Source: Clostridia bacterium (lineage in GTDB: Bacteria > Bacillota > Clostridia > Oscillospirales > CAG-272). Taken from it: 10,212 bases of DNA. A model generated the notes under the pieces. That model was not told where the DNA came from and ran no database searches. It worked only from the letters and a program-made list of their open reading frames with translations. The translations under genes and the position numbers were made by a program. Shown piece by piece: positions 468 through 10,212 of this stretch. How positions within the stretch are numbered: the first letter of the stretch is position 1; each line of letters starts with the position of its first letter. Location of the stretch: positions 1 to 10,212 of the forward strand of contig JAFTIV010000110.1 in assembly GCA_017456685.1 (NCBI GenBank), given 5' to 3'.

Positions 468-2594
468 TTAGCTTACGGGGTAGGTTTCGAGAAGGAAGTT
501 AAGGCTCTTTTCAAGATAGTCTCTTGTAAATTCCACCTGCTCTGCCCAGGTTTCAAGCTCTACAATGTATGCAGGGTCCCAGTTATTGGGGCTCCAAAGG
601 TGCTCATTACCCATTACATCTGTCCATTTTTCAAAGTTCTTCTCGAACGCGTCCTCCTTGTCGTAGGCATAGATATAGCACTCGTCAAGGGTTTGCTGAA
701 TAGTGAGCTTATTATCTCTTAATTGCTGACCGACAAGCAAGCGAAATTCCTCGTGCTCCAAAAGACCCTTGAACCACGGATTTTTGTTTCTTGCCCAGAG
801 ATAATTATATTTTTGAACATCGCTTCCCTTGTGGCTTACATTGCCAAGACACATATCAAAATCCCACACAGGTCCGCACTTAAGCTTTCCGCCTGCGTCC
901 TTGTACATATAGAAGCTTGAATAATCAACATCGGGGTTTTTGAATAGCTCAAAGATGATATATGCCTGTGCAAAGGATTCGACATCTACAAGCTCCTTAA
1001 CCGCCTCGTAGTCTGCTCCGTTGATTGCCGAGAGTGAGCTTTTTAGGTAGTTTTCGATAAAGGCTCTATGTGTAACGGATATACCGACAATATCGGGGGA
1101 CTTGATTGAGTATTTTCTGCTCGAATTTAAGCTATCGGGTACTACCACACATATTCCGTCGCCCCAGCCGTCCATCTCTACAAGGTTGCCTGTATCGACG
1201 ATGCTTTGGTCCTCGACCTCGCTTATTTCAACGCGGTTTTCATTGACCTCTACCTGCTCGCAAAGCAGATATACGCCTTTATAATCACCGTTTAAATAAA
1301 CCTCTACAAGCTGGCTATCGGGTGAGCTTTCAAGAGCTGACAGCGCCCTTGCCGTCTTATAAGCAAGGTGATTTCTTATAAGGCTTCTGTCGAAATGATT
1401 TGCAAGAAGCACCCAGTCCTTGCCCTCGCCAAAGTCAAAGAGGTCAGTCCTTTTATCAAATTTAATTTTGTAGGGCTTCTTTTCGAAATGGGTCCAGGTA
1501 GAGTTTCCCCTACCCTTTATTTGTGCAGAGGCTCCAAGAATAAATGTATCTCCATCGAGGTCATAAATTGTCACATCACACTTTAAATATGTGGTTTTTG
1601 AGGTGACATTTGCGCCCCCTTCGGTATCTATTGAGATAACAGGAAGTCCGCTACTCTCTCTGCCAAAATATGCCTTGAGCTTTACGCTTTGGCTTGCGGT
1701 AAAGAACATTCTTGGGTCTGTTGAGCCATCGCTCCAGCCAAGGAATTGATAGCCCTGAAGTGGCTCGGCAATTACGGCAAATATAGGCTCGCCCTCATCA
1801 ACCATTTGAACAGCCTCGCCCTTGATTACGCCCTTGTCCTCGTCGCAAACAAACTCAATTGTGTAGTATTTGCTAAAGATAGCAGTGTAAACAACATCCT
1901 TGGTTATTACATCGTGCCTTCTCTCTGTCGGCTTGCCATCGTCCCAGCCCTTAAAGCGGTAGCCCGCCTTTGGTGCAGCCTGAACGAGCCTTGAGGTTGA
2001 GCCGTAGGTAAGCTCCTGATAGGCTCTGCCCTCGATTTCTTGAATGTATCCGCCCTCACCAGCTACATATTCAACGCTTACCTTATTTGAAAAAAGCGCG
2101 GTTATAGTTTTATCTCCGCTTACAAGGTCGGCTCTTGATAGCTCCATAGAGCCATCATCCCAGCCGAGGAAGCGGTAACCCTCGAGAGGTGCTACTGTAA
2201 CCTGCTCGGTTGTTTGCCCGTGCTCAAGCGTTTGAATTGCGTTTCCTGTAATTACACCACCCTCAGGGCACGCATAGGTTATGGTTCCGTAGCTTATTTT
2301 TTCGAATTTTGCCTTAAATGTGGCACTCTGTGTGAGTGTATCGGTGCGAGTCGTAGCGGTCGAGCCGTCGTCCCAGCCAACGAAGCGATAGCCCTTTTTG
2401 GCTCTTGCGAGCACGGCATCAAAGCTCGCACTCTCGCCAGAGGCAACCTCCTTAGTCTGCTGAGCAACACCTACAATGCTTCCGCCCTCGCCCGCTACAT
2501 ATTCGACGCTTATGCTCGTCGTCTTATCTCCGCAAGAGAAAAGAAGCGATGTAAGCATCAAAATCGAAAATGCCAATATAAGTAGCTTTTTCAT
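468..2594 (-). CDS. Lipoprotein with four InlB-like repeats and a CotH kinase domain
   Basis: This 708-residue protein is predicted to be anchored outside the membrane: MKKLLILAFSILMLTSLLFS is a lipoprotein signal peptide and C21 in LFSC would carry the lipid. Four repeats of about 70 residues follow (about 26-311), each carrying GYRFxGWDDG or a variant (68-77, 139-148, 211-220, 281-290), as in InlB B-repeat/Listeria-Bacteroides repeat domains. Residues ~318-690 match the CotH family (spore-coat CotH; atypical protein kinases). Motifs include KGRGNSTW (360-367), LLANHFDRSLIRN (396-408), VEVYLNGDYKGVYLLCEQV (430-448) and GPVWDFDMCLGN (574-585), whose acidic pair is the likely metal/active site. 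The start is set by AGGAAGGA nine bases or less upstream. It lies 15 bases after the kinase stop and is the last gene of the operon. Substrate is unknown; surface protein phosphorylation or a structural role in glycan contact are both possible. Confidence 0.9.
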   Translation of the reverse strand: MKKLLILAFSILMLTSLLFSCGDKTTSISVEYVAGEGGSIVGVAQQTKEVASGESASFDAVLARAKKGYRFVGWDDGSTATTRTDTLTQSATFKAKFEKISYGTITYACPEGGVITGNAIQTLEHGQTTEQVTVAPLEGYRFLGWDDGSMELSRADLVSGDKTITALFSNKVSVEYVAGEGGYIQEIEGRAYQELTYGSTSRLVQAAPKAGYRFKGWDDGKPTERRHDVITKDVVYTAIFSKYYTIEFVCDEDKGVIKGEAVQMVDEGEPIFAVIAEPLQGYQFLGWSDGSTDPRMFFTASQSVKLKAYFGRESSGLPVISIDTEGGANVTSKTTYLKCDVTIYDLDGDTFILGASAQIKGRGNSTWTHFEKKPYKIKFDKRTDLFDFGEGKDWVLLANHFDRSLIRNHLAYKTARALSALESSPDSQLVEVYLNGDYKGVYLLCEQVEVNENRVEISEVEDQSIVDTGNLVEMDGWGDGICVVVPDSLNSSRKYSIKSPDIVGISVTHRAFIENYLKSSLSAINGADYEAVKELVDVESFAQAYIIFELFKNPDVDYSSFYMYKDAGGKLKCGPVWDFDMCLGNVSHKGSDVQKYNYLWARNKNPWFKGLLEHEEFRLLVGQQLRDNKLTIQQTLDECYIYAYDKEDAFEKNFEKWTDVMGNEHLWSPNNWDPAYIVELETWAEQVEFTRDYLEKSLNFLLETYPVS
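1662..2519 (-). repeat. Four tandem InlB-like repeat units inside the CotH lipoprotein gene
   Basis: The units span about residues 26-98, 101-169, 172-242 and 246-311, and the GWDDG motifs recur every 70-72 residues. Units 1 and 3 share the opening VEYVAGEGG, whereas units 2 and 4 start ITYACPEGG and IEFVCDEDKG. The DNA behind the unit 1 and unit 3 openings is 29 of 32 bases identical (2481-2512 against 2049-2080), much closer than to units 2 and 4. That suggests the pairs arose by duplicating a two-unit block or by gene conversion. Confidence 0.8.
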
Positions 2595-2609
2595 TTTAAT
2601 CCTTCCTTT

Positions 2610-4082
2610 TTAGAATTGAGCATAAATGCCCCTTAGCGCGGGGTAAATTTGCTTGAAGAGCTTGTATTTATTATCATAATATGCGGTCAATTTTTCGTTT
2701 GGTAAAATGCTGTCCTTGATTTGCACGAGAGAGTCGATTGCCTCGTCAAGAGAGGAATACTCGCCACAGCCGACCATGGCAAGGATTGCACCACCATATG
2801 ATGGACCCTGCTCGGTTACAGGTCTTTGAACCTCTATTCCAAGAACATTTGCGACAACGGTGCGCCAAATTTCGTTCTTTGCACCACCGCCACAGATAAG
2901 GCTTTTTTCAATTTTTACGCCACTTGCCTTAGCCACCTCTACACAATCACGAAGCGCGAATGCAACACCCTCCATAATCGCAAGAAGCATATGCTTTCTT
3001 GTGGTATTAGGACGCATACCGATGAATGCTCCTCTTGCACCTGCGTCGTTATGAGGGCTTCTCTCGCCCATAAGGTATGGAAGAAAATAAACCTCGTTTT
3101 CGTAAATTATATCGAAAAGTCCCTTTTGCTCGCCTACATAGTCATCGCTTTCAAGAATGTTCTCCATCCACCACTTATTACACGATGCGGCAGAAAGAAT
3201 ACAGCCCATTAGATGATATTTGCCTGTTGCGTGGCAGAAGCTATGAAGGGAGTTATTTTCATCAACCGAGAAGGTATCCTTGGAGATAAAGACCGTTCCG
3301 CTTGTTCCAAGGGAAATATTGCACGAGCCGTCCTTTATTGTGCCTGTGCCTATTGCGGCAGCCGCGTTATCGCCTGCGCCCGCACATATAACAACGCTCT
3401 CGCTAAGCCCTACCCTGTGTGCGATTTCGGGCTTTATTTTGCCTATAGGCTCATAGGACTCGTAAAGCGTTGGAAGCCACTGGCGCTTGATATGGCAGAT
3501 TTTTGTCATTTCGTCACTCCAGCACTTATTCTTTACATCTAAAAGAAGCATTCCGGATGCGTCCGAATAGTCAGTTGCGTGGACTCCGCTAAGAACATAT
3601 GCAACATAATCCTTAGGAAGCATAAGCTTGCTTATTCTCGCAAAGCACTCGGGCTCGTTTTCCTCAACCCACAAAATTTTAGGCGCGGTAAAGCCCGCAA
3701 AGGAAATGTTTGCAGTATATGATGAAAGCGTCTGCTTTCCTACCTCACTATTTAGGCGGTCGCTCTGCTCCTGTGTTCTTCCATCATTCCAAAGAATTGC
3801 GGGACGAATTACCTTATCGTTTTCATCAAGAATTACAAGACCGTGCATCTGTCCGCCAAAGGAAATTCCCTTAACGCTTGATTTGTCCTGACCCTCAAGA
3901 AGCTCGCAAAGCCCGTCTATTGTCTGTGTTGCCCAGTCCTCGGGATTTTGCTCACTCCAGCCACTCTGTGGATAGGAAATAGGATAATCCCTGCTTACAC
4001 TATTTAAAAACTCTACATTTGCCCCAACAAGAAGCATCTTTACAGACGATGTGCCGAGGTCTATTCCAATATAACTATTCAT
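2610..4082 (-). CDS. xylB: Xylulokinase-type FGGY carbohydrate kinase
   Basis: A 490-residue cytoplasmic kinase of the FGGY family, full length for xylulokinase, which makes D-xylulose 5-phosphate from D-xylulose and ATP for the pentose phosphate pathway. The N-terminal lobe opens with the phosphate loop GIDLGTSSVK (6-15). GGQMHGLVILD (76-86) and LWNDGRT (97-103) are typical of xylulokinases and form the sugar site. GAGDNAA (235-241) carries the likely catalytic base D238. SLGTSGTVF (257-265), LPYLMGERSPHND (334-346) and the ATP-site motif GGGAKNEIWR (398-407) follow. The ribosome binding site is AAAAGGA before the ATG. It lies 50 bases downstream of the rhamnosidase with no terminator between. 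Next to a rhamnosidase one might expect rhamnulokinase, but the MHG and WNDGRT motifs favour a xylulokinase-like enzyme; the true substrate is not proven by sequence. Confidence 0.93.
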   Translation of the reverse strand: MNSYIGIDLGTSSVKMLLVGANVEFLNSVSRDYPISYPQSGWSEQNPEDWATQTIDGLCELLEGQDKSSVKGISFGGQMHGLVILDENDKVIRPAILWNDGRTQEQSDRLNSEVGKQTLSSYTANISFAGFTAPKILWVEENEPECFARISKLMLPKDYVAYVLSGVHATDYSDASGMLLLDVKNKCWSDEMTKICHIKRQWLPTLYESYEPIGKIKPEIAHRVGLSESVVICAGAGDNAAAAIGTGTIKDGSCNISLGTSGTVFISKDTFSVDENNSLHSFCHATGKYHLMGCILSAASCNKWWMENILESDDYVGEQKGLFDIIYENEVYFLPYLMGERSPHNDAGARGAFIGMRPNTTRKHMLLAIMEGVAFALRDCVEVAKASGVKIEKSLICGGGAKNEIWRTVVANVLGIEVQRPVTEQGPSYGGAILAMVGCGEYSSLDEAIDSLVQIKDSILPNEKLTAYYDNKYKLFKQIYPALRGIYAQF

Positions 4083-4132
4083 ATCTTGTTCCTTTTCTGC
4101 TTATTTTGCCTTATTATTTGCAAAAGCGCGTT

Positions 4133-6274
4133 TTAAAATACATATGAGCCCGCCTCAAGGGTATGGCTTTTACCTTCAATTATGACAGTTGCCTTAACGG
4201 GAGTTGTAATCTCGTATCTAAAGCCGTCGCCCTCCTTGTACCACGCAGAGGACACCTCTCCGTGTCTTGTTTCAATTTTTGCGCTAAGCCAGTCAAGCCT
4301 TTTGGTTGGATTTGGCGCGATAAGCACCTGCTCAAAGCCAGGCTTTTCCTCTATCGTTTGAATTCCACAGGCAACTCCATATACCCAATCAGCAACGCTT
4401 CCGTAGGCGTAATGATTAAATGAGTTCATATCCTTGGACCAGAACTCGCCCTTGTCGTTTATGCCGTCCCAATGCTCCCAAACGGTGGTTGCACCCTGCT
4501 TAACAGAATAGAGCCACGAGGGGTAATTTTCTTGAAGAAGAATATCGTATGCAAGCTCTGTATAGCCGTTTTGTGATAGCGCATGCAAAAGGTATGGCGT
4601 ACCAACAAAGCCCGTCTGTAGCCTCTTACCGTTTGCCTTAAGCATATTGGCAAGCTGATTTGCCACAGCCTTTTTATTGTCTGTCAAATCGAAGTACAAG
4701 GCGAGCACACACTCGGTTTGAGTTTTATACTCCGTAAAGGTCTCTCTTGCTCTTTTTAAAATTCTCTTATAAAGTGCCTCGTATTTCGAAACATTTCTGC
4801 CAAGCACCTTGCCTGCCTTTACCACAAGGCTTGTGGAGTGTGCATAAAAGGCTGTTCCTATGATATCAAGGCTTGTCGAGCCTACATAGCTTCCAGCAGG
4901 GGCATCAAGTCCAAGCCAGTCGCCAAAGTGCCAGCATCCGTACCAAAGATCCTTTTTCTTTGTGATTTTTCCTATCTCGTCAACATAGGTGCACATTGAC
5001 TTGAATTGCTTTCTTAGTATGCTCTTATTGCCGTAGGTTAGGTAAATTTGCCAAGGGCAAACGGTTGAGGCATCGCTCCACGCAGCGGTTGAGCTACCTG
5101 GCTTTTCGTGAACCTGTGGCACTACAAAGGGTATAAGTCCCTCTCTTTGCTGCTCAAGCCAGAGGTCAGCAAGCCATTTTTCGAAGAACCTTTCAACATC
5201 GTAGTTATACGATGCGGTGCGCACGAAAACCTGTGCATCGCCCGTCCAGCCCAGTCTCTCGTCCCTTTGCGGGCAATCGGTTGGAATGTCAAGGAAGTTT
5301 CCTCTTTGACCCCAAATTATATTTGAAAAAAGCTTATTAAGAAGCTTGCTTGACGAATTAAGATAGCCTGTGCGCTTCATTTGTGAATGAATTACAATCG
5401 CCCTTATGCTATCAAGGGTAAGTGTGTCGGGGAAGCTATTTACCCTTATATATCTAAAGCCCCAAAAGGCGAGGCGTGGCTTGTGGGTCTGGTGTCCGTC
5501 GGCACAAATATATTCAAATTCAGCCTTAGCACTTCTATAGTTCTCTGTATAAAGATTTCCGTCCTTGTCAAGAACCTCGGCAAAGGAAAGCGAAACGCGC
5601 TCTCCCGCCTTGGCATCAAGCTCGATTTCAAAATAGCCAGTGAGATTTTGATTAAAGTCGATAACCGTCTCGCCCTTGGGGGTTGTAAAAATGCGATGAG
5701 CACGAATTTTTTGTTGCTCTATCACCTTCTCGCCCTGTTGCCTTACAATCTCGACAAAGGAGCAATCCTGAACGCATACGGGTCCAAAGCTCTCGCTTGC
5801 GGTTGCATCATAATGCTCGCCATCATAAAAATCGCTCATTGTGATTTTGCTAAGCGATGTCTCCCACTCCTCGTCTGTGCGAATGTAGCTTATCTCTCCG
5901 TCGAGATATACAAGCTCAAGCTCACAAATGATAGCGGGGTGAGTGTCCTTAAGCTCTGTGCGATTGCGCTCATTTATTCTGCCCTTGAACCAGCCCGCGC
6001 CAAGAGTAACGCGGAGCTCATTTTCAGCGCTTATAAGCTCTGTTACATCGTACTCCTGTAGCTGTACTCTTTTGTAAAAGGTCCAGCCAGGGGCGAAGAT
6101 AAAGTCTCCTACGCGCCTTGAGCCAAGCTCAGCAACATAACAGCCAAGCGAGGTTATTCTAAGGGTCGCGCTCTTTACGGGCTTGTTAAGAGTAAATTTG
6201 CGTCTAAAGACGGGGCAAATTGTCTCGTCATGATATTTAGGATAGGTAATCCATTTTGCGTTTTCAAGTAGCAT
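4133..6274 (-). CDS. GH78 family alpha-L-rhamnosidase, cytoplasmic
   Basis: This 713-residue glycoside hydrolase of family GH78 (inverting) should release terminal L-rhamnose from glycosides or pectin-type oligosaccharides. Residues ~1-165 are beta-rich and resemble the rhamnosidase N-terminal sandwich domain; ~190-300 form a second beta domain. The (alpha/alpha)6 barrel (~305-640) contains the family signature DIPTDCPQRDERLGWTGDAQ (329-348), with candidate catalytic acids D333, E339 and D346. WSDA (399-402), FGDWLG (450-455) and TTVWEHWDG (596-604) follow; E600 is the likely partner acid. A beta C-domain (~645-713) ends the protein. There is no signal peptide, so substrates must be imported. 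It is shorter than many GH78 enzymes (often about 900 residues), apparently because it lacks an extra N-terminal module. The start has AGAGGA about eight bases upstream. It is the first gene of the operon, 36 bases downstream of the predicted transcription start. Other GH78 substrates are possible. Confidence 0.93.
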   Translation of the reverse strand: MLLENAKWITYPKYHDETICPVFRRKFTLNKPVKSATLRITSLGCYVAELGSRRVGDFIFAPGWTFYKRVQLQEYDVTELISAENELRVTLGAGWFKGRINERNRTELKDTHPAIICELELVYLDGEISYIRTDEEWETSLSKITMSDFYDGEHYDATASESFGPVCVQDCSFVEIVRQQGEKVIEQQKIRAHRIFTTPKGETVIDFNQNLTGYFEIELDAKAGERVSLSFAEVLDKDGNLYTENYRSAKAEFEYICADGHQTHKPRLAFWGFRYIRVNSFPDTLTLDSIRAIVIHSQMKRTGYLNSSSKLLNKLFSNIIWGQRGNFLDIPTDCPQRDERLGWTGDAQVFVRTASYNYDVERFFEKWLADLWLEQQREGLIPFVVPQVHEKPGSSTAAWSDASTVCPWQIYLTYGNKSILRKQFKSMCTYVDEIGKITKKKDLWYGCWHFGDWLGLDAPAGSYVGSTSLDIIGTAFYAHSTSLVVKAGKVLGRNVSKYEALYKRILKRARETFTEYKTQTECVLALYFDLTDNKKAVANQLANMLKANGKRLQTGFVGTPYLLHALSQNGYTELAYDILLQENYPSWLYSVKQGATTVWEHWDGINDKGEFWSKDMNSFNHYAYGSVADWVYGVACGIQTIEEKPGFEQVLIAPNPTKRLDWLSAKIETRHGEVSSAWYKEGDGFRYEITTPVKATVIIEGKSHTLEAGSYVF

Positions 6275-6316
6275 TTTAGTGTCCTCTTTAATATTTTTAA
6301 ATATATTTCTATTTTT

Positions 6317-6345
6317 ATTTTAACATTATTTACAGGTATTGTCAA
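6317..6345 (-). promoter_or_regulatory. SigA-type promoter of the rhamnosidase operon
   Basis: On the minus strand TTGACA (6345-6340), 17 bases and TAAAAT (6322-6317) form a near-perfect promoter with TGT before the -10 box. Transcription would start near 6310, giving a leader of about 36 bases. That is too short for a riboswitch, and I see no clear operator palindrome or cre-like site around it. The -35 box begins 8 bases after the U tract of the preceding terminator. Confidence 0.82.
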
Positions 6346-6353
6346 TAAAAAGC

Positions 6354-6382
6354 AAAAAAGACTGCATAGAAATGCAGTCTTT
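6354..6382 (-). terminator. Intrinsic terminator of the TIM-barrel epimerase gene
   Basis: A perfect 11-base-pair stem, AAAGACTGCAT (6357-6367) with ATGCAGTCTTT (6372-6382), has the loop AGAA. On the minus strand it starts about 10 bases after the stop codon at 6393 and runs into six T residues (6359-6354). It insulates this gene from the rhamnosidase operon. Confidence 0.92.
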
Positions 6383-6392
6383 ACTTGATTTG

Positions 6393-7244
6393 TCAGTCCC
6401 AGTAGCCGAGATTCGGCTTTGGCTTAGAAATAATTGTTATGGGCTTATTTTCAAACACTTCCCTCGCGTTTTTAGCAAAATCCTCACAGGTCAAGGGGCG
6501 TTCTCTTATAATTGTATTTGGGCACTCAAAATCAATTTCATAAAGCCAAGGGCCATTATAGTTAGCCCTCTTTAGAGCCTCAAGAATTGCCTGCCAGTTG
6601 AGCTTGCCCTCACCAGGTAGCCAATGGCGCTCGTTTACAAAATCGTAGTCCGAAATATGCGTTGTAACAATTTTGTCGCCGAGAGTGTCGATAAAATCGA
6701 CAGCATCCTCTGTAAGCAGATGGTTCGTGTCAAAGCAAATTTTAAGGTCTGGGTGTGCCGAAATAAGCTCTTGCATATCGGCAATTGTATTACCAAGACA
6801 GCTTCTTGGCAAATCCTCAACCGCAAGGGTAGCACCAAGCGAGGTCGCGCACTCGGCAAGCTCCGCAAGGCTTTTCTTTGCAATTTTCATTCTTTCGGGG
6901 CGCTCTGTGTCGCTAATTGGCTCTCCGCTTGCATGAATTACAAAAAGCTTAATACCTATGTCGCGCGCTTTTTTCATAACACCCTTAAGGTAGATAACCG
7001 AGCGCTCGGCAAGCTCAGGGCTTGATATATCTATGTATTGAAATGGACAGAACGGAAGATGGAAGGACCAAAGCTCAACCCCGTATTCATCGGCAAGCGA
7101 GCGATAAAGCTCAAAATTAAGCTCCTCACAGTCCGCTATGCTTGAGCGACTTATCTCCATTGCCTTAATTCCGTTATCTCTGTAAGCCTCGAAAAGCTCC
7201 TCACATGCTATCTTTCCACAGCTTGAAAGTCCTATCTTAAACAT
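6393..7244 (-). CDS. Sugar phosphate isomerase/epimerase-type TIM-barrel protein
   Basis: A 283-residue cytoplasmic protein of the AP endonuclease 2/xylose isomerase-like TIM-barrel superfamily, usually annotated sugar phosphate isomerase/epimerase. Candidate divalent-metal ligands sit at the expected strand ends: E143 (AVEDLP), D172 and H175 (CFDTNH), H196 (TTHISD) and E236 (LYEID). H62 and H104 lie on earlier strands, and HWLPGEGKLNW (207-217) is the usual active-site loop late in the barrel. Length is typical. The ATG has AAAGAGGTG five bases upstream. The gene is a single-gene unit with its own promoter (7274-7302) and terminator, just upstream of the rhamnosidase operon on the same strand, so it fits a carbohydrate role. 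The exact substrate (ketose epimerisation, inositol-type or another sugar) cannot be read from the sequence. Confidence 0.88.
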   Translation of the reverse strand: MFKIGLSSCGKIACEELFEAYRDNGIKAMEISRSSIADCEELNFELYRSLADEYGVELWSFHLPFCPFQYIDISSPELAERSVIYLKGVMKKARDIGIKLFVIHASGEPISDTERPERMKIAKKSLAELAECATSLGATLAVEDLPRSCLGNTIADMQELISAHPDLKICFDTNHLLTEDAVDFIDTLGDKIVTTHISDYDFVNERHWLPGEGKLNWQAILEALKRANYNGPWLYEIDFECPNTIIRERPLTCEDFAKNAREVFENKPITIISKPKPNLGYWD

Positions 7245-7273
7245 AATTACACCTCTTTCAATTTACTAATATA

Positions 7274-7302
7274 ATTTTACCACACACGCGCACCTGTGTC
7301 AA
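7274..7302 (-). promoter_or_regulatory. SigA-type promoter of the TIM-barrel epimerase gene
   Basis: TTGACA (7302-7297), a 17-base spacer and TAAAAT (7279-7274) on the minus strand, with TGG immediately before the -10 box. The predicted start near 7267 leaves a leader of about 23 bases before the ATG at 7244. The spacer is GC-rich and alternates purine and pyrimidine (GTGCGCGTGTGTG), unlike the A/T-rich surroundings. Confidence 0.8.
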
Positions 7303-7321
7303 TAAAAACGCAAAATTTCTT

Positions 7322-7350
7322 AAAAAAAGAAGCACTCGGCAGAGTGCTTC
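7322..7350 (-). terminator. Intrinsic terminator of the acidic lipoprotein gene
   Basis: A perfect nine-base-pair stem, GAAGCACTC (7329-7337) with GAGTGCTTC (7342-7350), has the loop GGCA. On the minus strand it begins 11 bases after the TAG stop and is followed by seven T residues (7328-7322). Confidence 0.93.
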
Positions 7351-7361
7351 CTTGATTTTAA

Positions 7362-8183
7362 CTATTGCACCTCGGGGAAATCCTCGCAACCAGGAATAGG
7401 TGTTACGGTAACTGCTGTGCCAACCTTGTTTATTTCCACAGAAACACTCGCGCTGATTGTTGCGTCTTGACCCTCAATGTTAACATTCTCGATTGAGATA
7501 TCTGTATTTGCTGACTTTATGTAGCCGTTCTTCGCAATTACAAGCTCTACCTCAATGTCCGAAATCTCGACCTCGTCAGCATCAGCAACAACGCCCTCGC
7601 TCTCGAGATAGCCCTTTATTGTCTCATATACCTCAGGGTAAGCGCTTTCGGTAATTGCAAGAGTAAGTGTCTTGCCAGACTCCTCGCTCTTAACATCAAT
7701 ATCATCAAGAATTGCCTTTGGAATTTCTCTTACAACATCGTCAAAGGACTCCGGAATTTCTGGAATTTCCGCATCTGCCTCGTCGTAAGGGGTCTTGTAG
7801 CCTACTCCGTCCTCGACAATATACATCCACTCGCCATCGGTGTACATCTTCATGCTTGTGCTCTCGCCCATTACATTAGCGGAGAGCTCCATATACATAG
7901 CCTGCTCGTTAGCCTTAATAGAAGCTGTTACAGGAATTGTAAGTGTCATTCCGCTTACTGCAACTGATACATTGAGTGTAAGTGTTGCATCTACGCCTGC
8001 GAGCTCAGCTGTAGCTGTAAGTGCCTCCGAAAGAAGCTTAGCGTTGCCTGTAAGCTCGCTCTCGCTTGAGCTTTCCTCGTCATCATCATCGTCATCGTCG
8101 CTTCCGCCAAGCTCGCACGAGAAGAGCGCAAATGATGAAAGAAGCATGCAAAGAACAAGTATAATTGATAATAGCTTTTTCAT
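7362..8183 (-). CDS. Acidic lipoprotein, LolA/LppX-like fold suspected
   Basis: This 273-residue protein starts with a lipoprotein signal peptide (MKKLLSIILVLCMLLSSFAL) and has C23 in LFSC as the likely lipidated residue. An acidic, serine-rich tether follows, with seven aspartates in a row (29-35), then EESSSESE. The mature part (about 44-273) alternates beta strands, with a segment EQAMYMELSANVMGESTSMKMYTDGEWMYIVEDGVGYKT-like in pattern (long strands carrying a YTDGEWMY hairpin at about 113-120). That resembles the curved-sheet lipoproteins of the DUF6612/LppX-LolA type found in Bacillota; this is a fold guess, not a motif match. It would sit on the outer face of the membrane. The ATG has AAGGAGA about six bases upstream. 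It is a single-gene unit between a strong promoter and a strong terminator. Function is unknown. The aspartate run comes from a GAT/GAC triplet tract at 8079-8099 that could vary in length by slippage without shifting frame. Confidence 0.85.
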   Translation of the reverse strand: MKKLLSIILVLCMLLSSFALFSCELGGSDDDDDDDEESSSESELTGNAKLLSEALTATAELAGVDATLTLNVSVAVSGMTLTIPVTASIKANEQAMYMELSANVMGESTSMKMYTDGEWMYIVEDGVGYKTPYDEADAEIPEIPESFDDVVREIPKAILDDIDVKSEESGKTLTLAITESAYPEVYETIKGYLESEGVVADADEVEISDIEVELVIAKNGYIKSANTDISIENVNIEGQDATISASVSVEINKVGTAVTVTPIPGCEDFPEVQ

Positions 8184-8391: not shown

Positions 8392-9969
8392 TTGAACTGG
8401 GAACTTTTTGTATTGATTCTCTATTTCTCAACAATGCTTGGAATAGGAATCTTTATGTTCATTCGCTCAAGGAGCAAAACCGACAAGGATTATTTTCTTG
8501 GTGGAAGAAGCACCGGCCCTTGGGTAACTGCAATGAGCGCGCAGGCGTCTGATATGAGCGCTTGGCTTCTTATGGGACTTCCTGGAAGCGTTTTGGCCTT
8601 TGGTCTTGGACAAATTTGGATAGGCATAGGTCTTTTAATCGGCACCGCACTTAACTGGATACTTATTGCTAAAAGACTTCGTTGCTTCTCGCAGGCTACA
8701 AATGACTCGATTACCGTGCCACAATATTTATCTAATCGCTTTGCCACGAAGAGCAAGGGGCTTCAGGTATCGTGTGCGATAGTTTTCCTCGTTTGCTTCA
8801 CCATTTATGTTGCATCTGCATTTGTTGCGGGCACTGATGTGTTTGTTACCCTTTTTCCTAACCTTGAAAGATGGGTTGCAATGCTCATTTTCGCAGCAAT
8901 TCTTATCATCTATACCTTCCTCGGCGGATACAAGGCTGTTTGTTGGACAGACTTTTTCCAAGGACTTTTGATGCTCGCTGCTGTTTTGGCTGTACCACTT
9001 ATTATGGTATTTGCAGGAGACCTTGAGTTCTCGCTTCTTAGCAACGAAATCATCTCTGTCGGTGGAAATTCATATGCCTTTAACACAAATATGTTCTCCG
9101 ATTTTAGAGAAATCATAAATGGTCTTGCTTGGGGTCTTGGCTACTTTGGTATGCCTCATAGTATCGTCCGCTTTATGGGCATTAAGAAGGCATCTATGGT
9201 TAAGAAATCCGAAATCGTTGCCATCAGCTGGGTAACCCTTGCCCTTTCTGCAGTAGTTTTAATTTCCGTATTTGGCAGAGCCTTTGTTTTAGATGGTGTA
9301 AGCCTTGGAGAGCTTCTCCTTTATGGCGATTCTCAAAAATTGATATTTATTACTCTTGCAAGAGAACTATTCCCTGCGATAATTGCTGGACTTCTGCTCT
9401 CGGCTATCATAGCGGCTTCTATGTCAACCGCTGACAGCCAGCTTCTTGTTGCATCCTCATCCTTTACATCCGACATCTATAAGCCTCTAATCCGTAAGAG
9501 TGCACGCGACAAGGAAACTCTTTGGGTTGGTCGTGGGGTAGTTGTTCTTATTTCGATTATCGCATTTGTAATCGCAGCTGTTGGTGGTAGCGGAGCACAG
9601 GCGATTATGAATCTTGTTGAGTGCGCTTGGGCAGGCTTCGGCTCTGCGTTTGGTATGGTAATCATTCTCTCTGTATTCTGGAGACGCTTTACCTACAAGG
9701 GTGCGCTTGCGGGAGTTATCACAGGTGCGCTTGTTGACCTAATATTCCTTATGTTCTTCACAGATACCGCAACAACCTTTATTAGTGGCTACACATTCTT
9801 TATCGACACAGGTGTTTACGAGCTTATTCCTGGCTTTATCGCAAGTGCAATTGCCTCGGTTTCCGTAACCCTTCTTGACAAGGAGCCCTCTAAGGAGGTT
9901 ACCGACATATTCGACAACGCTATGTCACTTGCCAACAATAACGAGGAAACGGCTTCCGTTGAAGCATAA
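8392..9969 (+). CDS. putP: Sodium/proline symporter, SSS family
   Basis: A 525-residue membrane transporter of the sodium:solute symporter family that should take up proline with Na+. The PutP hallmark YFLGGRSTGPWVTAMSAQAS (34-53) followed by DMSAWLLMGLPGS (54-66) carries the conserved Asp D54 of the Na+ site. The second half of that site is SMSTADSQL (343-351), with S345 and T346 matching the sodium-binding serine and threonine of E. coli PutP. About 13 hydrophobic segments run from residue 5 to ~495, and a soluble acidic tail of about 30 residues ends the protein. The start is TTG: GAGAGG lies eight bases before it, and the nearby ATG at 8372 runs into a stop after seven codons. It is transcribed away from the lipoprotein gene and alone. 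Other SSS substrates cannot be excluded, but the motif match to proline carriers is close. Confidence 0.93.
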   Translation: MNWELFVLILYFSTMLGIGIFMFIRSRSKTDKDYFLGGRSTGPWVTAMSAQASDMSAWLLMGLPGSVLAFGLGQIWIGIGLLIGTALNWILIAKRLRCFSQATNDSITVPQYLSNRFATKSKGLQVSCAIVFLVCFTIYVASAFVAGTDVFVTLFPNLERWVAMLIFAAILIIYTFLGGYKAVCWTDFFQGLLMLAAVLAVPLIMVFAGDLEFSLLSNEIISVGGNSYAFNTNMFSDFREIINGLAWGLGYFGMPHSIVRFMGIKKASMVKKSEIVAISWVTLALSAVVLISVFGRAFVLDGVSLGELLLYGDSQKLIFITLARELFPAIIAGLLLSAIIAASMSTADSQLLVASSSFTSDIYKPLIRKSARDKETLWVGRGVVVLISIIAFVIAAVGGSGAQAIMNLVECAWAGFGSAFGMVIILSVFWRRFTYKGALAGVITGALVDLIFLMFFTDTATTFISGYTFFIDTGVYELIPGFIASAIASVSVTLLDKEPSKEVTDIFDNAMSLANNNEETASVEA

Positions 9970-9989
9970 ATCAAAAAGCAGAGATTTAA

Positions 9990-10021
9990 TAGCGTGATAC
10001 TCTTAACGGAGTATCACGCTA
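9990..10021 (+). terminator. Strong hairpin after the symporter gene, no U tract
   Basis: TAGCGTGATACTC (9990-10002) and GAGTATCACGCTA (10009-10021) form a perfect 13-base-pair stem with the loop TTAACG, 20 bases after the stop codon. There is no run of T after it, so it is not a classic intrinsic terminator. Each arm contains a 7-of-9 match to the 9-mer of the adjacent array (CGTGATACT against AGTGATATT), so it may be the first, head-to-head member of that array. It could still protect the 3' end of the symporter mRNA. Confidence 0.6.
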
Positions 10022-10023
10022 AC

Positions 10024-10193
10024 TCTATTCGCCTTCGGCGAGTTCTATTGCTACGCAGTGATATTCGGCTTACGCCGAGTGATATTTGCTTCGCAAGTTT
10101 ATAGGCGAATAGAATATCACTGAAGCCGTAAGGCTTCAATATCACTGTCGTTGTGCGACAATATCACTCTTTGCGTCAGCAAAGAATATCACT
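10024..10193. repeat. Array of small hairpins separated by the 9-mer AATATCACT in two orientations
   Basis: The 9-mer occurs four times directly (10113-10121, 10138-10146, 10160-10168, 10185-10193) and twice inverted as AGTGATATT (10057-10065, 10078-10086), every 21-25 bases. Between copies are small hairpins: TTGC/GCAG-type (10047-10059), TCGGC-TTAC-GCCGA (10065-10078), TTGC-TTC-GCAA (10086-10096), TGAAGCC-GTAA-GGCTTCA (10121-10138), TGTCG-TTGTG-CGACA (10146-10160) and CTTTGC-GTCA-GCAAAG (10169-10184). A further hairpin TCGCC-TTC-GGCGA lies at 10029-10041. TCTATTCGCCT (10024-10034) and AGGCGAATAGA (10103-10113) are 11-base inverted arms that could close over the left half. Stems differ in sequence but keep pairing; the loop TTAC in an inverted unit is the reverse complement of GTAA in a direct unit. 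I see no coding frame. It resembles a compound palindromic-repeat element rather than a CRISPR. Confidence 0.85.
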
Positions 10194-10212
10194 TTATACC
10201 AACAGAAAAGAG
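10194..10212. other. Right edge after the hairpin array
   Basis: The final 19 bases (TTATACCAACAGAAAAGAG) lie past the last 9-mer copy. No further 9-mer or hairpin is visible here, so the array may end at about 10193, but the window stops too soon to tell whether another gene or more units follow. Confidence 0.3.

Follow-up and report, generated by a model that had tools for sequence, protein, structure and literature searches.

Hairpin arrays in terminator loops of a Clostridia bacterium are probably mobile elements related to 23S rRNA intervening sequences

INTRODUCTION

Near the end of a 10,212-nt contig from a Clostridia bacterium (the window, i.e., the whole stretch of DNA analyzed here), a sodium:solute symporter gene is followed by an array in which one constant 9-mer alternates with hairpins, and the question is what this array is and what maintains it. 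An earlier note on this DNA, which recognized no named family, suggested a mobile or self-amplifying palindromic element resembling REP/BIME in its logic, a structured RNA, or a site read by a protein specific for the 9-mer. The source genome is a 1.43-Mb draft in 208 contigs (63.7% complete).

Two previously described entities proved relevant. Gut-1 has been described as a probable non-coding RNA represented by human gut sequences only (PMC2864571). Intervening sequences (IVSs) of 23S rRNA replace the tetraloops of helices 9, 25, and 45, and the protein S23p (intervening-sequence protein, IVP) is a toroidal homopentamer whose function is given as not known (PMC4990558). An earlier account of the element itself was not found in the open-licence literature, judged by titles and abstract beginnings.

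RESULTS

Organization of the array

The linker AATATCACT occurs in six exact copies, four direct (starting at 10113, 10138, 10160, and 10185) and two inverted (10057 and 10078), just as the earlier note had placed them, and all four stems that it named are present in the window. With one mismatch allowed, the window contains 10 matches, where 200 shuffles gave 2.59 on average and never more than 7. Folded as RNA, 10015–10200 reaches −69.6 kcal/mol, while shuffled versions average −40.8 (z −6.8); folded as DNA, the same region has a z of −6.6. The element extends beyond the stretch of linkers and hairpins in both directions, from ~9985 to past the contig end (10212). Its array is asymmetric, with a 5′ half that has inverted linkers and is closed by long-range pairing (10025–10033 with 10104–10112), followed by a 3′ half of three hairpins with direct linkers. 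The features are as follows.

8392..9969, + strand: sodium:solute symporter gene (PF00474, E 1.5e-86), whose terminator holds the insertion; in a congener, the orthologue is followed by an intact terminator
9973..9984, + strand: 5′ arm AAAAAGCAGAGA of the interrupted rho-independent terminator; its exact complement TCTCTGCTTTTT follows the element's 3′ end on contig C15
9990..10021, + strand: lead hairpin TAGCGTGATACTC-TTAACG-GAGTATCACGCTA, the element's first part
10020..10090, + strand: 5′ half of the array, Gut-1-like (RF01706, 46.5 bits, E 4.3e-8, below the gathering score of 50)
10025..10033, + strand: X, CTATTCGCC, a 5′ strand with two possible partners (pair conservation in 20 aligned elements)
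10037..10042, + strand: local partner of X, GGCGAG (aligned elements)
10057..10065, − strand: linker AATATCACT, inverted (exact match)
10065..10078, + strand: hairpin TCGGC-TTAC-GCCGA (fold)
10078..10086, − strand: linker AATATCACT, inverted (exact match)
10086..10096, + strand: hairpin TTGC-TTC-GCAA (sequence)
10104..10112, + strand: X′, GGCGAATAG, distal partner of X, closing the 5′ half (aligned elements)
10109..10194, − strand: 3′ half, Gut-1-like on the opposite strand (RF01706, 40.2 bits, E 1.7e-6, below the gathering score)
10113..10121, + strand: linker AATATCACT (exact match)
10122..10137, + strand: hairpin GAAGCC-GTAA-GGCTTC (sequence, fold)
10138..10146, + strand: linker AATATCACT (exact match)
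10147..10159, + strand: hairpin GTCG-TTGTG-CGAC (sequence)
10160..10168, + strand: linker AATATCACT (exact match)
10169..10184, + strand: hairpin CTTTGC-GTCA-GCAAAG (sequence, fold)
10185..10193, + strand: linker AATATCACT (exact match)
10194..10212, + strand: start of the element's conserved 3′ block, cut by the contig end; the block continues in C74, C183, C190, and C15

Elsewhere in the window, the minus strand of 468–8180 carries genes for a CotH-type protein, an FGGY kinase, an alpha-L-rhamnosidase, a TIM-barrel isomerase-like protein, and a DUF6612 protein, possibly a rhamnose-related cluster.

Interspersed copies and kinship with Gut-1

The array forms the structured portion of an element of ~320 to 430 nt that is interspersed in the draft genome. 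A similarity search gave 21 matches, three of them second matches of the lead hairpin, and thus 18 places on contigs. Many contigs break off within the repeat, so that some of these places probably represent the halves of a single copy (e.g., the window and C15), and the count of complete copies is limited by the draft state and by repeats at contig ends. A lead hairpin of the same or another sequence precedes the array at 16 of the 18 places, i.e., at all those with the 5′ end on the contig (by eye). The pattern AATATCACT-N15-35-AATATCACT occurs 21 times in the genome, and its reversed-reading control does not occur. The dispersed copies support the mobile palindromic element proposed earlier, a reading that had been staked on the pattern recurring in the genome and in relatives; it is present in both.

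Both halves of the window's array match the Rfam Gut-1 model (RF01706) over its full length (1–77 of 77), one on each strand, with the three hairpins and the linkers included, at 46.5 and 40.2 bits, i.e., below the gathering score of 50. On the question of a named family, the earlier note therefore needs correction, as the 5′ half of the array aligns end to end with the model and scores just below the cut-off. In contrast to Gut-1 as filed, this unit is here one half of a mobile element. Across the genome, Gut-1 matches were found at 51 places (22 at or above the cut-off) with 150 of 186 candidates scored, and among 14 control genomes, the model matched in one (Escherichia coli), below the cut-off. 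Copies with the linker GATTTCAA are numerous among the 20 best Gut-1 places; L064, L068, L079, and other Gut-1-type arrays with this linker lie outside terminator loops and adjoin other repeats.

Conservation of pairing across copies

To describe the fold across copies, we aligned 20 elements of the window's linker type out of 22 candidates, leaving out the near-identical L023 and L029. Eight of the nine X:X′ long-range pairs are kept in all 20 elements and the ninth in 17, and the outermost pair is CG in 11, AT in five, and TA in four. The 3′ hairpins are swapped wholesale, with 45 distinct segments among the 20 elements, 37 of which form a perfect stem of at least 4 pairs, compared with 10% of shuffled segments. 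The earlier proposal that stems vary while pairing is kept thus holds from copy to copy, in support of a unit maintained by its structure.

Insertion into the loops of rho-independent terminators

We compared the sequence just before the lead hairpin with its complement after the element. Seven copies have their two ends on a single contig (C39, C74, C98, C163, C183, C184, and C190; inserts of 323 to 425 nt), and all seven were found to sit in the apical loop of a rho-independent terminator with both arms kept. The exactly complementary arms are 11 to 14 nt long, have their own sequence in each copy, start A-rich, and are followed by a T-tract; when arms from different loci were paired as a control, 40 of 42 pairs did not exceed 10 nt, and two reached 11 and 13 nt. 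One of these copies, C98, has another linker, GATTTCAT, and unchanged outer ends. The elements also show imperfect inverted ends (by eye).

The remaining 11 places are cut by contig ends. For two pairs of contigs, however, the arms match across the gap, namely the window (AAAAAGCAGAGA) with C15 (TCTCTGCTTTTT) and C107 with C88; C15 also begins inside the window's array. We infer that the two members of each pair join into a single copy. The window's copy, seen across two contigs, would accordingly share the loop location of the seven complete copies, and the data come close to proving that its site is the terminator separating the symporter gene from the convergent gene that comes next, the second terminator arm being on C15.

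Seven of nine loci lie between convergent genes (judged by open frames), so insertion orientation is unusable as a sign of insertion at the RNA level. By the same open frames, C163 is co-directional and C107/C88 is read only from the 3′ side; C107 also contradicts the idea that every copy follows the stop of an open reading frame. Loop insertion was likewise rejected as a general rule for Gut-1 arrays: of the 13 that could be judged among the 20 best Gut-1 places, two (L063 and L078, already counted among the loop insertions) were positive, and one other place, L073, has a 12-nt complement without a T-tract.

Insert-free terminators in congeners

Joined flanks were searched against 28 congeners. 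For C163, the two flanks are present together with an intact terminator (loop of 4 to 6 nt) in four of them (L174, L203, L176, and L204); in six more that aligned (L182, L186, L191, L206, L207, and L208), the flanks enclose other sequence or the terminator is missing altogether. Since L186, which is orthologous to the C163 locus, holds a different array with the linker AATATCGT, this spot may have been hit more than once. The C183 stem recurs in congener G100 (L175), capped by a three-base loop, and for C98, the insert-free site is found in L205. The flanks of C74 adjoin in L222 with a terminator-like hairpin (by eye), and for C190, L220 has the intact terminator after the upstream gene, with the downstream flank 647 nt further on. 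No empty site was seen for C39 or C184 among the 28 congeners. The window's own locus, if it continues on C15, is free of an insert in congener G118, where the symporter gene leads into an intact terminator and then, as judged by eye, into the gene found downstream of the element on C15.

These sites bear on whether the array might instead be a host RNA with a cellular function, such as a non-coding RNA or a 3′ UTR regulator, rather than a mobile element. The strong conserved fold with compensatory changes would suit such an RNA, and the Gut-1 family was first filed in Rfam as an sRNA. A host RNA nevertheless fits poorly with congeners that lack the insert at the same loci, with 51 Gut-1 places in one draft genome, and with copies that follow different genes from one copy to the next, and we consider it very unlikely.

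An IVP gene behind longer arrays

In longer forms of the element, the array is directly followed by a gene that encodes the 23S rRNA intervening-sequence protein (IVP/S23p, PF05635). In the window's own genome, all three IVP matches are preceded by an array; that of C136 has the window's linker and was also called by our detector, and those of C118 and C16 have other linkers and were recognized by eye. The IVP gene is absent from the window and from all seven complete copies. IVP-bearing copies of the window's linker type include C136, L097, L254, and L256, of which the latter three sit in terminator loops. Terminator-type arms were not seen for five more such copies (L109 and L117, within 700 nt; L255, L257, and L258), and several other IVP-bearing copies come after a tRNA terminator instead. 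In L109 and L117, the sequence after the IVP gene resembles the 3′ block of the short copies (by eye); the window type may therefore have arisen from the IVP-bearing form by deletion.

Among 98 genomes of the family, 59 contained a total of 156 IVP matches. We studied 93 loci (three from the window's genome and 90 others, taken best-scoring first, with one short match passed over). With a strict detector, 45 arrays were called, of which 36 lay no more than 250 nt ahead of the IVP match, and 34 of the 93 loci had an array within 500 nt upstream; a laxer detector found one at 48 of 93 loci and in 6 of 409 displaced windows. In 46 of the 93 loci, a same-strand tRNA gene ended fewer than 600 nt upstream; in two, a tRNA was present within 600 nt downstream. 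In loci from named gut Clostridia (the best 80 of 580 relatives, partly of the same species), an array was present in 38 of the 70 with enough upstream DNA, an upstream tRNA in 32 of the 70, and a downstream tRNA in none of the 80. Seven of the 70 passed an automated loop test; we read L254 and L256 as insertions into a loop and L308, L313, and L328 as having a terminator copy on either side, and consider L268 and L301 doubtful.

Tandem repeats precede the IVP gene in 20 of the 93 loci, with a period of 7 (19 loci) or 14 (one locus) where periods of 6 to 16 were allowed. L124, L135, L150, L157, L158, L165, L170, and others have tandem heptamers, often in five copies, and in L124, L150, L157, and L165, the 5′ arm of a tRNA terminator has a second complementary arm further down (by eye). 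Successive elements stand behind a tRNA or gene in L098, L153, L308, L313, L209, and L210, sometimes with different linker types, and terminator copies are repeated in L098, L153, L308, and L313. Open reading frames behind the IVP gene encode a methyltransferase, an S51 peptidase, and a nucleotidyltransferase (L256, L117, and L210) and may be cargo. General target duplication was rejected: long direct repeats flank 12 of 105 IVP loci (0 of 96 displaced windows), and these cases are partly tandem neighbours plus one repeated tRNA gene. Phages or plasmids showed no sign of being the main vehicle, with five loci in a viral collection and 25 plasmid records below 60% identity; one unannotated faecal phage record holds part of an array.

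Linker type follows the IVP tree

Linker labels, assigned from the DNA to 75 of 88 proteins by array linker or heptamer type (in part by eye and with the proteins known, close variants being pooled), required 13 changes on the IVP tree for 11 classes, where the minimum possible is 10 and the lowest of 1,000 shuffles was 43. Without the heptamer class, 12 changes were needed, compared with a shuffled minimum of 35. Thirteen rows had been left unlabelled, including the detected arrays L092, L133, and L152 and the heptamer tandems L086, L087, and L166; with these six labelled too, the tree required 14 changes for 12 classes over 81 rows (shuffled minimum, 47). The clades include a window-type AATATCAC clade and a AACTTCAC clade.

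The protein and its array are therefore stably bonded. Recognition of the linker by IVP is the likely reason, judging from sequence comparisons, although the two may merely travel as one unit. Because linker type follows IVP clade, a protein that reads the 9-mer, one of the readings offered in the earlier note, is our best guess.

Candidate mobility enzymes

Counts of Gut-1 and IVP matches are correlated across the 98 family genomes (rho 0.69, p 4e-15; the genomes are related and the points not independent), with both present in 51, IVP alone in eight, Gut-1 alone in 16, and neither in 23. The Gut-1 counts are lower bounds, as no more than 42 candidates were scored per genome (at least 40 for the window's genome, compared with 51 in the fuller scan).

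The earlier note had looked to a REP-associated tyrosine transposase (RAYT). REP, BIME, and REPIN sequences share with the present element dispersed palindromes, opposite orientations, and non-autonomous units (PMC3116915), and differ from it in that we find no RAYT, a precise insertion into loops, and another protein partner. As a REP/BIME or REPIN moved by a RAYT (Y1) transposase, the element would have its many interspersed palindromes in two orientations explained, and Y1_Tnp does occur in 37 of the 98 genomes, with a weak positive correlation to Gut-1 (rho 0.22, p 0.026). PF01797, however, had no match in the window's genome (63.7% complete) or in G027 and G089, which are 96–97% complete and have Gut-1 arrays, and Gut-1 tracks IVP far more closely than Y1_Tnp. 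The RAYT suggestion is thus unsupported, and we regard this origin as highly improbable.

Group IIC introns use a reverse transcriptase, and such an enzyme (PF00078) was sought as a partner. It had no match in the window's genome (63.7% complete), G027, or G089, and was rejected, being present in only 3 of the 29 genomes of the genus (1 of the 11 nearly complete ones). These introns resemble the element in using intrinsic terminators as targets but insert after the terminator motif (PMC4424553), whereas the window type splits the loop.

A further alternative is a MITE-like element moved in trans by a transposase or recombinase, with IVP a passenger that has another role, e.g., binding the element RNA. 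Imperfect inverted ends, non-autonomous copies, short forms that encode no enzyme, and neighbours that are possible cargo (the methyltransferase, S51 peptidase, and nucleotidyltransferase) could all be accommodated in this way. Against it, IVP recurs directly behind arrays and its clade predicts the linker, and the two mobility enzymes sought were absent from the window's genome and weakly correlated or rare elsewhere. We therefore consider a MITE-like origin unlikely, though the most serious of the alternatives.

IVP loci outside the family

In a sample of the phylum, 50 of 249 genomes (the window's included) had an IVP match, 43 of them over the cut-off. Thirty IVP loci from outside the family yielded a single array call, a low-complexity tandem (L223); many of the 30, though not all, have short inverted flanking repeats (by eye). 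Six loci picked by eye and run against Rfam proved to be inside genes for 23S rRNA (four) or RNase P RNA (two). In the latter two (L245 and L248, 1229–2003, from two Bacillota genomes), the IVP element is inside a class A RNase P RNA gene, which the introduction of PMC4990558 does not name as an IVS site. Solved relatives of IVP are 2rld (E 1.7e-43) and, weakly, 2gsc (E 0.004).

DISCUSSION

Related copies occupy the tips of terminators, congeners have such terminators free of inserts at several of the loci, and IVP genes stand directly behind the longer arrays. We conclude that the window's array is probably a non-autonomous mobile element of the 23S rRNA IVS kind, for which IVP made by longer copies would read the linkers and aid placement in hairpin tips. 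Like the IVSs, the element has longer copies that encode the same protein family, and it replaces a hairpin loop while the arms are kept. It differs from them in its target, a transcription terminator between protein genes, in its many interspersed copies, in its internal hairpin array with constant linkers, and, for the window's copy, in the lack of an IVP gene; that copy follows the symporter gene rather than lying in an rRNA gene.

In the mechanism we propose, IVP from the longer copies would recognize the constant linkers, single-stranded between the hairpins, and would gather both half-arrays. It would then help to lodge the element in hairpin tips, while host enzymes would do the cutting and joining; that IVP drives mobility in addition to reading the linker is what the sequence comparisons lead us to propose. 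Because both terminator arms survive, the host gene would keep its terminator and the insertion would be tolerated, much as rRNA helices tolerate IVSs.

More tentatively, 23S rRNA IVSs, Gut-1 RNAs, terminator-loop elements, and tRNA-terminator cassettes could be local forms of one bacterial superfamily of hairpin-tip elements, a possibility to which we give somewhat less than an even chance. A non-enzymatic pentameric protein would read, and co-evolve with, words of 7 to 9 nt (bare heptamer tandems or hairpin-spaced linkers) and direct the element to hairpin tips without a transposase or reverse transcriptase of its own.

The proposed reading ties together three orphans, namely the Gut-1 RNA, the IVP/S23p family, and the hairpin repeats of gut Clostridia. 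It would give IVP a role that can be tested, along with a definite list of candidate cognate words, and the landing site is named as the terminator tip, where insertion leaves the signal of the host gene intact. The insertions in rRNA may then be no more than the visible part of a general occupation of hairpin loops.
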